DNA from: Microcaldota archaeon
GTDB lineage: Archaea; Micrarchaeota; Micrarchaeia; Micrarchaeales; CABMGC01
Assembly (NCBI GenBank): GCA_030043435.1
Contig: JASHXR010000083.1
Location: 1-10,928, forward strand
Direction: 5' to 3'
Length of the DNA: 10,928 bases
In this document: piece after piece, positions 4,120 to 5,105 of the stretch
How positions within the stretch are numbered: the stretch's first letter is position 1
Layout: each line of letters begins with the position of its first letter
Position numbers and translations under genes: made by a program
The notes under the pieces: generated by a model
What the model saw: the letters and a program-made list of their open reading frames with translations, nothing else
Told to the model about the DNA's origin: nothing
The model's database searches: none

Positions 4120-4220
4120 CCCTAATCGTCAGCGCCTTACATCGCGATGGCGCAGCGGAGCCTGGCCTGCTACTGCGCGCCTGATGCGCCGCGCGCCTTC
4201 CAGAGGCCAAGGCCGAAAGG

Positions 4221-4227
4221 TTTATTA
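4221..4227 (+). promoter_or_regulatory. possible upstream TATA box in the 4084-4323 intergenic region
   Basis: CGAAAGG-TTTATTA resembles a BRE plus TATA box and would start transcription near 4250. The rest of this 240-bp gap holds only short hairpins: GGCGCA/TGCGCC (4149-4154/4185-4190), ATACT-GAG-AGTAT (4232-4244) and GGCG-GTT-CGCC (4264-4274). I see no coding frame and no recognisable RNA in it. Confidence 0.3.
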
Positions 4228-4286
4228 GCAGATACTGAGAGTATTACCGCGTGGCCAGGCCTCGGCGGTTCGCCAGGGCATGGCAA

Positions 4287-4294
4287 TATTAATA
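4287..4294 (+). promoter_or_regulatory. TATA box for tRNA-Ser and probably the ribosomal protein operon
   Basis: TATTAATA is centred about 34 nt upstream of the tRNA-Ser 5' end, predicting a start near 4316-4318 and a leader of about 7 nt. Only 12 nt separate the tRNA from rps13, so this is the most likely promoter for the downstream genes too. Confidence 0.55.
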
Positions 4295-4361
4295 AGGTAG
4301 AGCATACATAGACATCAGCAAATGCCAGGGTGGCAGAATCCGGTAACGCGTGCGCCTGGAA

Positions 4362-4373
4362 ACAGGACCCGCA
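4362..4373 (+). other. tRNA-Ser anticodon-loop intron (canonical 37/38)
   Basis: The intron is 12 nt, ACAGGACCCGCA. Exact edges can slide by one base on either side without changing the mature CTGGAAA loop. With the canonical 37/38 position, loop bases CTGG can pair with CCCG of the intron at three of four positions, leaving AA^A and CA^A bulges. This is a relaxed bulge-helix-bulge with no distal stem. Confidence 0.75.
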
Positions 4374-4406
4374 AGCGCATGACTCTCTGAGTCTTTTGGG
4401 TTCAAA

Positions 4407-4422
4407 AGCATCAGGCTGAATA
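4407..4422 (+). other. tRNA-Ser T-loop intron (59/60) with full bulge-helix-bulge
   Basis: This 16-nt intron, AGCATCAGGCTGAATA, interrupts the T loop. The structure is complete: T stem TTGGG/CCCAA, then a 4-bp central helix TTCA (4401-4404) with TGAA (4417-4420), 3-nt bulges AA^A (4405-4407) and TA^T (4421-4423) containing the splice sites, and a 2-bp distal helix GC/GC (4408-4409/4415-4416) closed by 5 nt. Splicing endonuclease cuts such motifs after the second bulge base, which restores TTCAAAT exactly. Confidence 0.87.
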
Positions 4423-4448
4423 TCCCAACCCTGGCGTGGTGTTTACCT

Positions 4449-5105
4449 ATGGCAGAAGACAAGCAGCAGGAGAGGAGGAAGGACGAGGAGCTCGGCATCA
4501 TCAGGATGGCGGGACGCGACGTCAAGGGCAGCTACACGGTGGTAGCAGCGCTCATGCAGATAAAGGGCATAGGCCACAACATGGCCAACGCTATCGCGCT
4601 CGCCGTGGAGAGGCAGTACGGGATAAAGGCCGAGACCAAGATAGGCACTCTGAGCGATGAGCAGACAGGCGAGATAGAGAAGCTGATGAAGGAGCCGGCA
4701 AGGGCGGGCATACCTGGCTTCATGCTAAACAGGAGGAAGGACCTCGAGACAGGTACGGACATGCACGTGATAGGCACCGACCTGTCCGTGGCTGTAAGGC
4801 AGGACATCGAGAGGGAGATACGCAACCAGACGTGGCGCGGCTTCAGGCACATGTACGGGCAGCGCGTCCGCGGCCAGAGGACGAGGTCGAGCGGCAGGAC
4901 AGGAGCAACGGTCGGAGTCACCAAGGCGAAGGTCGAGGCCGCGGCAAAGGCTGCCAGGGCCCCTGCGGGCGGCGCAGGGAAGCCGGGCGCAGCGCCTGCC
5001 GCAGCGGCGCCAGGCGCAGCTCCTGCAGCAGCTCCGGCGCAGGGAGCGCCGCAGGCCGCTGCCAAGCCTGCAGCCAAGCCTGCCGAGAAGCCGGCTCAGA
5101 AGTAG
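4449..5105 (+). CDS. rps13: small ribosomal subunit protein uS13 with long Ala/Pro-rich tail
   Basis: uS13 sits in the head of the 30S subunit and contacts the P-site tRNA and the 50S subunit. The core matches archaeal uS13: IIRMAGRDVKGSYTVVAALMQIKGIGHNMA (17-46, helix-hairpin-helix-like), GIPGFMLNRRKDLETGTDMHVIGTDL (87-112) and the RNA-binding TWRGFRHMYGQRVRGQRTRSSGRTGATVG (128-156). Beyond about 157 there is a tail of some 60 residues made almost only of Ala, Pro, Lys, Gly and Gln, absent from ordinary uS13. The start at 4449 has a GGTG Shine-Dalgarno match at 4438-4441. This is the first protein gene after tRNA-Ser, and rps4 follows 8 nt after its stop. Confidence 0.97.
   Translation: MAEDKQQERRKDEELGIIRMAGRDVKGSYTVVAALMQIKGIGHNMANAIALAVERQYGIKAETKIGTLSDEQTGEIEKLMKEPARAGIPGFMLNRRKDLETGTDMHVIGTDLSVAVRQDIEREIRNQTWRGFRHMYGQRVRGQRTRSSGRTGATVGVTKAKVEAAAKAARAPAGGAGKPGAAPAAAAPGAAPAAAPAQGAPQAAAKPAAKPAEKPAQK

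Follow-up and report, generated by a model that had tools for sequence, protein, structure and literature searches.

Noncanonical bulge-helix-bulge (BHB) introns, multiple introns within one tRNA, intron positions in the T arm and the ARMAN endonuclease are already published (PMC4033280, PMC12397907, PMC3293823, PMC8450103, PMC9602550 and PMC3218864). The archaeal introns of this type, found in Thermoproteales, Thaumarchaeota, Caldiarchaeum and ARMAN and at positions that include the T arm, likewise combine a short insert, a 4-bp central helix and two 3-nt bulges, and likewise occur in multi-intron tRNAs. ARMAN-1 and ARMAN-2 belong by label to the same phylum as the genome studied here and have the same type of enzyme, with conserved residues in the ARMAN-specific loop (ASL); both are recorded as having tRNAs with multiple introns (PMC4033280).

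The permuted tRNAs of Thermofilum pendens and Cyanidioschyzon merolae have their junction at the same place in the T loop, 59/60 (PMC3218864). In contrast, the gene halves at our locus follow the usual order, which rules out a permuted tRNA, and what is inserted is an intron. C. merolae tRNA-Ile(UAU), another multi-intron tRNA, has a BHB intron in the T loop (PMC9602550). That intron belongs to a eukaryote, however, and presumably reflects an unrelated event.

What we add is that T-loop introns are common in one Micrarchaeota order, where most of them lie in Ser, Arg and Ala tRNAs. Compared with the known archaeal BHB introns, those described here are frequent at 59/60, the T-loop position surveyed, and the one in tRNA-Ser(GGA) is apparently inherited across two families. 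In a literature search that did not extend to the primary ARMAN description, we found no recognition in print of T-loop introns as a widespread Micrarchaeota feature.

The tRNA-Ser(GGA) gene and its two inserts

The window, that is, the whole 10,928-nt stretch analysed, is contig C31 of the 746-kb, 70.6%-complete genome of a tiny uncultured archaeon of the Micrarchaeota. The features at the locus are as follows.

4288–4296, + strand: TATA-box-like ATTAATAAG, ~28 nt 5ʹ of the tRNA gene, a putative archaeal promoter (by eye)
4324–4436, + strand: gene for pre-tRNA-Ser(GGA), including two introns and the discriminator G at 4436 (sequence; 37-row alignment with covarying stems)
4358–4360, + strand: anticodon GGA (anticodon-loop position; columns invariant across the 37-row alignment)
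4362–4373, + strand: intron 1, at 37/38, ACAGGACCCGCA, 12 nt, relaxed BHB (all 37 orthologs have an insert at this site)
4381–4393, + strand: long variable arm of a class II tRNA (three of five stem pairs changed on both sides; 94.4% of cells paired)
4396–4428, + strand: T arm carrying intron 2 (sequence; orthologs; covariation)
4396–4400 and 4424–4428, + strand: T stem, TTGGG/CCCAA (sequence)
4401–4404, + strand: exon strand of the central helix, TTCA, corresponding to T54–A57 (orthologs; covariation)
4405–4407 and 4421–4423, + strand: 3-nt bulges, AA^A and TA^T (sequence)
4407–4422, + strand: intron 2, at 59/60 in the T loop, AGCATCAGGCTGAATA, 16 nt (present in 32 of 37 orthologs and missing from 5; BHB covariation)
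4408–4409 and 4415–4416, + strand: distal helix, GC/GC, closing the loop ATCAG at 4410–4414 (sequence)
4417–4420, + strand: intron strand of the central helix, TGAA (orthologs; covariation)
4449–5105, + strand: ribosomal protein S13 gene, starting 12 nt past the tRNA gene (Pfam PF00416, E 3.6e-33)

The gene has a GGA anticodon, a long variable arm and a G discriminator, and its stems comprise a 7-bp acceptor, TGCGC/GCGCA in the anticodon arm, GACTC/GAGTC in the variable arm and the T stem given above. A covariance model, R1, matches 4324–4436 with 126.6 bits, the window sequence itself being part of the R1 training set. The first-pass annotation of this DNA had proposed tRNA-Ser(GGA) from the sequence alone, and that isotype holds: anticodon, class II variable arm and orthologs agree, the assignment of GGA depending on placement of intron 1 by the BHB rule. 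The interval 4396–4428, which it had singled out, is exactly the T arm, and every part of the BHB that it described around a 16-nt insert is present, with two 3-nt bulges and four of four central pairs. Its 85-nt spliced form is also correct, provided that the 12-nt intron at 4362–4373 is removed as well from the 113-nt unspliced gene (113 − 16 − 12 = 85). We conclude that this is almost certainly a functional tRNA-Ser(GGA) gene whose precursor would carry two endonuclease-spliced introns; its transcription, cleavage and ligation, the exact cut sites and the order of events are what we infer from sequence.

Removal of the 16 nt of intron 2 leaves the T loop TTCAAAT. The letters of the window alone fit a cut at 58/59 or at 59/60, both of which give TTCAAAT (a one-base ambiguity); the 59/60 cut is favoured by the BHB rule and by an ortholog, L031, whose insert ends in a base other than A. 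When the 16-mer is shuffled, four central plus two distal pairs arise with P ~0.0017. This is weak by itself; the case for a BHB rests on the ortholog set.

Two other explanations for the locus were rejected. A group I intron has a catalytic core of roughly 100 nt, against an insert of only 16 nt here, and a pseudogene is ruled out by conservation.

The central helix of intron 1 pairs CTGG (4356–4359) with CCCG (4368–4371), leaving U33 unpaired. Orthologous inserts at 37/38 are 10–24 nt long and have three of four central pairs in 31 cases, all four in 5 and two in 1. The pairs of precursor C33, G35 and G36 (tRNA C32, G34 and G35) are each kept in 36/37 orthologs and that of precursor U34 (tRNA U33) in 7/37, which usually leaves one mismatch in the central helix. 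The placement of intron 1 matters for the identity of the gene. When the T-loop insert is removed and intron 1 is kept, ARAGORN places intron 1 otherwise and reads the window as tRNA-Ala(GGC), which would have intron 1 removed at 35/36 and an anticodon loop CTGGCAA. It makes the same call for nine more of the 28 Ser(GGA) orthologs submitted. We consider this reading extremely improbable. The gene has the long variable arm of a class II tRNA; ARAGORN itself calls Ser(GGA) for 16 of the 28, against 10 calls of Ala(GGC) and one each of Thr and Pro; the same genus has separate, short class I tRNA-Ala(GGC) genes (L124 in G001 and L185 in G005); and the conservation of the 37/38 BHB at three of its four positions argues for the Ser(GGA) placement.

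The two introns of tRNA-Ser(GGA) come and go independently. In three genomes of family f12 (G152, G102 and G061), CTGGAGA runs directly into the 3ʹ anticodon stem, so that the 37/38 intron is absent while the T-loop intron is present.

AT-rich elements resembling ATTAATAAG lie, as judged by eye, at a similar distance 5ʹ of many orthologs. A scan for sigma-70 promoters, whose model does not cover archaeal promoters, gave one promoter-like match, inside the S13 gene on the opposite strand; its two terminator-like matches are tRNA arms. S13 lies ~180 nt or less downstream in 25 of the 37 orthologous loci, and 7 of the other 12 are 401-base pieces. The arrangement suggests that S13 may be co-transcribed with the tRNA and its messenger released by tRNA 3ʹ processing. 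Elsewhere in the window, positions 570–1859 contain an IS605 OrfB/TnpB-like gene with a Cas12f1-like TNB domain.

Conservation and covariation of the T-loop insert

A DNA search of 40 genomes (our own and 39 relatives) gave matches in all 40, and 37 yielded a parsable tRNA-Ser(GGA) with a 5-bp T stem and at most one mismatch in the acceptor stem. The remaining three (G013, G018 and G028), whose rows came only from other serine tRNAs, were left out. A T-loop insert of 13–43 nt is present in 32/37 orthologs, the window included, and the other five (G011, G012, G023, G036 and G038) have an uninterrupted TTCAAAT. The comparison of tRNA-Ser(GGA) orthologs that the first-pass annotation recommended thus agrees with an intron. 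A second intact tRNA-Ser(GGA) gene, which it had named as a finding that would count against its reading, was not found: the window's own genome, 70.6% complete, has a single R1 match.

To delimit the 32 inserts, we relied solely on the stems and on acceptor pairing. In 30 of them all four central pairs form between TTCA and TGAA (or TGGA or TGAG, with U-G pairs), and in the other two (G016 and G030) three of four; the distal helix has at least two pairs in 31/32. Shuffled inserts contain a mean of 0.55 complete central helices, with a maximum of 4 in 2000 rounds, as compared with the 30 observed. Sliding the partner by −3, −2, −1, +1 or +2 leaves 0/32 complete at each offset. In the 37-row alignment, 98.7% of cells in the named structure are paired (shuffles, 92.1%) and 13 pairs are changed on both sides (shuffles, 6.0), values that none of 500 shuffles reach. 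One of five covariation measures, the number of further pair types, was unexceptional (25 versus 22.8; reached by 55/500 shuffles).

Both pairs of the distal helix are changed on both sides among the orthologs. In contrast, the central helix shows within the order either a one-sided change (U-A to U-G) or none, as expected of a helix whose exon strand belongs to the unchanging T loop. Outside the order, however, G replaces A at position 57 in six loci, and the opposite base is C in five of them (L215, L216, L239, L240 and L246; L239 and L240 are both from G209, so that the six loci represent at most five genomes). The sixth, L247, has U opposite and would form a G-U pair. A further locus outside the order, L253, has A57 opposite C, a mismatch. 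The G57 set offers our strongest evidence for the presumed use of the central helix.

Could the insert instead be kept, so that the tRNA is unusual in having an enlarged T loop, or could the gene have decayed? The folding energies, which contrary to expectation do not show the BHB, are what speaks for this. In the T arm of the window, the BHB lies 2.4 kcal/mol above the minimum-free-energy (MFE) fold, with central-pair probabilities of 0.03–0.05; the alternative fold extends the distal helix by one pair and leaves a 6x6 internal loop. The BHB is the MFE fold in 0/32 T arms and lies within 0.4 kcal/mol of it in 7/32, in all of which the first intron base is not A, and the central helix is absent from the MFE fold of the whole precursor. 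Free-RNA stability is not a defining feature of BHB substrates, and the unfavourable energies probably reflect a limit of the energy model for motifs that are protein-bound. Against a kept insert, excision restores TTCAAAT in 32/32 cases, as the first-pass annotation had predicted for the window, and this is the uninterrupted loop of the other five orthologs. Furthermore, the helices covary, the stems and anticodon are intact across the 37 orthologs, and residues T54–A58 are needed for the contact between the T loop and the D loop. Retention or decay is hence hardly credible, and we continue with the reading of the insert as a spliced intron.

Within the order, the intron in tRNA-Ser(GGA) appears to have been passed on by vertical descent and to have been lost (or regained) repeatedly.

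T-loop introns across the order and phylum, and their detection

Introns at 59/60 had been described in the first-pass annotation as known in some archaea but uncommon. The kind is indeed known, but “uncommon” does not apply to this lineage: in the order, a pattern for T-loop inserts matches 37 of 40 genomes, and we read inserts in tRNA-Ser genes from 12 further families of the class. The pattern GGTTCRAA N6-36 TGRRNRTCC has 105 matches in 37/40 genomes, as compared with 5 for a reversed control. We read 104 of these, having dropped one exact duplicate; their central pairing is no evidence for a BHB since the pattern already demands TGRR. They fall in tRNAs for Ser(GGA) (28, set by orthology), Arg(CCT) (21), Arg(TCT) (16), Ala(GGC) (13), Arg(TCG) (11) and Ser(CGA) (6), with single calls of Asn, Gly and Cys that may be misreadings, and six genes are uncalled. 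Besides the T-loop intron, three tRNA-Ser(CGA) genes (L047, L222 and L223) contain, as judged by eye, one more insertion at about 31/32, on the 5ʹ side of their anticodon loop.

In a sample of the phylum, R1 has a match in 271 of 295 genomes. Presence or absence in the order was scored from the length of the best listed R1 match per genome, part of the rows being read by sequence. On this basis, among the matches listed, 139 of 161 genomes of the order are represented, 116 with a T-loop insert and 23 without. Also among the matches listed, 46/50 genera contain at least one insert-bearing genome and five hold both states. Sixteen further loci from the order, half of them chosen for shortness, divide into 8 with an insert and 8 without. 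In 40 genomes chosen outside the order, R1 matches in 40/40. Among 24 top-scoring tRNA-Ser loci there (22 genomes, several anticodons), 17 from 12 families have a T-loop insert and 7 do not. Because the loci were picked for their high scores and mix several serine anticodons, this proportion is not a prevalence. The central helix of the 17 has four of four pairs in 11, three in 5 and two in 1.

One genome, G250, has two copies of tRNA-Ser(GGA), L224 and L225. L224 is identical to genes of G217 and G262 (L227 and L228), which belong to another genus. Hence, both copies in G250 probably reflect contamination of the assembly.

The first-pass annotation had warned that standard tRNA callers can miss the gene in the window, and this was borne out for ARAGORN and Rfam. 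ARAGORN does not find it, even with the intron option on the unspliced gene, and Rfam does not find it at the gathering threshold or at E up to 5 on 4200–4560, where there was no match of any kind, including none to a group I intron. Both programs find the tRNA-Asn at 2461–2534 in the same window. Across the genes with T-loop inserts, ARAGORN with the intron option calls a tRNA in 98/104 once the insert has been removed and in 1/104 before. For tRNAscan-SE 2.0, BHB models are described for Crenarchaeota/Euryarchaeota and Thaumarchaeota, and the main text of that paper does not contain the string DPANN.

Introns at 37/38 in other serine tRNAs of the relatives contain a different element. The motif AGAGCTGA-N-RTGATG recurs in tRNA-Ser(UGA) and tRNA-Ser(CGA), with 52 matches in 36/40 genomes (reversed control, 3), part of which were read and some of which are probably due to chance. 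A narrower pattern has 28 matches in 22/40 genomes (reversed control, 2), and 27 of the 28 lie in tRNA-Ser by reading (a script flagged 26, and L145 was added by eye). These putative elements (L136–L163 except L156; for example L143, match 1501–1518 with the intron around it) resemble what we take to be box D′ (CUGA) and box C′ (RUGAUG), and the loop between the two boxes is 3 nt long in 22/31 distinct cases. The sequence upstream of CUGA is complementary to the anticodon loop. Its base five positions ahead of CUGA, which is free in the pattern, pairs with base 34 in 30/31 and covaries with it (T34-A in 25, C34-G in 5; C34-A in 1). Under the N+5 rule, this pairing would predict 2′-O-methylation of the wobble base. 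It is therefore possible that these introns encode a guide for modification of base 34, in parallel with the pre-tRNA-Trp intron, which is a 2′-O-methylation guide (PMC4090602, PMC7994747 and PMC11408192). Inspection of these introns by eye revealed no terminal box C/D pair, and the function of the element is uncertain. The window's own genome has no match to AGAGCTGA-N-RTGATG, and for none of 11 matches outside the order do the 80 bases upstream contain a serine anticodon loop.

Proposed splicing and possible spread of T-loop introns

In the window's own genome, the tRNA-intron endonuclease family is represented by a single match, a protein of 385 aa (G000:C116) in which Pfam domains were found. 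It aligns with ARMAN-2 epsilon2 (PDB 4fz2) over residues 9–385 (E 1.1e-155) and, in the alignment as read by eye, is identical at ASL residues Y160 and K161 and at catalytic residues Y236, H251 and K282 (numbering from PMC12397907). The N-terminal and catalytic domains in one chain, the Y/K pair of the ASL and the Y/H/K catalytic set are those of an epsilon2 enzyme. The Pfam family PF01974 is found in 35/40 genomes; the five in which it is absent (G002, G003, G004, G009 and G013) are all at most 88% complete. RtcB is present in the window's genome (E 1.2e-160) and in 10/10 genomes of the genus, this one included. Archaea with such endonuclease loops tend toward diversified intron positions, and the structure of a close relative of this endonuclease in complex with RNA has been solved (PMC12397907).

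We propose that the central helix forms between exon residues T54–A57 and the TGAA close to the intron's 3ʹ end, that the epsilon2-type endonuclease of the same genome would then cut the two 3-nt bulges, AA^A and TA^T, and that RtcB would join the exons and so restore TTCAAAT. The 37/38 intron would be removed likewise, from its relaxed BHB.

Are T-loop introns related to one another within a genome? We compared 70 intron cores, stripped of their end motifs, with Ser(GGA) and uncalled genes left out. The mean score is 0.16 within genomes (53 pairs), as compared with −0.05 between genomes for the same isotype (477 pairs) and −0.06 for different isotypes (1885 pairs); the within-genome value is reached in 0/5000 label permutations. 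The 52 pairs from the same genome but of different isotypes have a mean of 0.16, versus −0.01 in shuffles that preserve composition and length (0/1000 reach it), a control that accounts only in part for shared hairpin constraints. Near-identical introns occur in different tRNAs, Ala and Arg in G031 and G032 and Arg and Ser in G010, and the flanking exon bases compared are 44–72% identical. Identical introns are also found in Arg(CCT) and Arg(TCT) of G036, a pair explained as well by gene duplication or conversion since the flanks are nearly identical too (22/25 and 16/18 bases). Thus, T-loop introns of one genome appear more alike than those of different genomes, as though they had been copied from T loop to T loop. 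Ser(GGA) introns, in contrast, are alike across genomes (mean 0.145) and score −0.04 against other introns of their own genome and −0.09 against those of other genomes.

In G034, two nearly identical 30-nt T-loop inserts (L189 and L190; C17, 10574–10614 and 11297–11337) lie 723 bases apart. After splicing, ARAGORN calls Arg(TCG) for one and makes no call for the other.

What keeps these introns in place? One idea is that the intron is real and retained for a function: it could mask the T loop until splicing, and so order modification and folding, or it could shield the T loop from integrating elements. In a red alga, Pus4 makes no pseudouridine 55 in tRNA that still contains a T-arm intron (PMC9602550), and the intron in tRNA-Ser(GGA) has been retained for long, across two families. 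However, it is absent from 5/37 Ser(GGA) orthologs and, among the matches listed, from 23/139 members of the order, with both states in five genera; where present it varies between 13 and 43 nt and its loop sequence is free. Absence from part of the genomes, together with free length and loop sequence, fits a dispensable passenger, and we regard retention for function as unlikely.

A further reading that we advance tentatively, with less than even confidence, is that the T-loop introns of Micrarchaeota are a portable family, copied from tRNA to tRNA and still spliced by a permissive epsilon2 enzyme, and that the intron in the window is an old, vertically kept member. Since the T loop, nearly the same in all tRNAs (TTCAAAT), supplies half of the splicing motif, an intron with little more than “TGAA-NA” would suffice. 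A similar transposition, with similar introns in different tRNAs, has been reported for Thermoproteales (PMC4033280).

These introns bear on how the genomes of this lineage are read. Because tRNA genes with T-loop introns are missed by ARAGORN and by the Rfam tRNA model, such genomes can appear to lack essential tRNAs. Furthermore, several genera differ in whether one and the same gene has the intron, and single genomes contain near-identical introns in different tRNAs, which makes the spread of tRNA introns directly testable.
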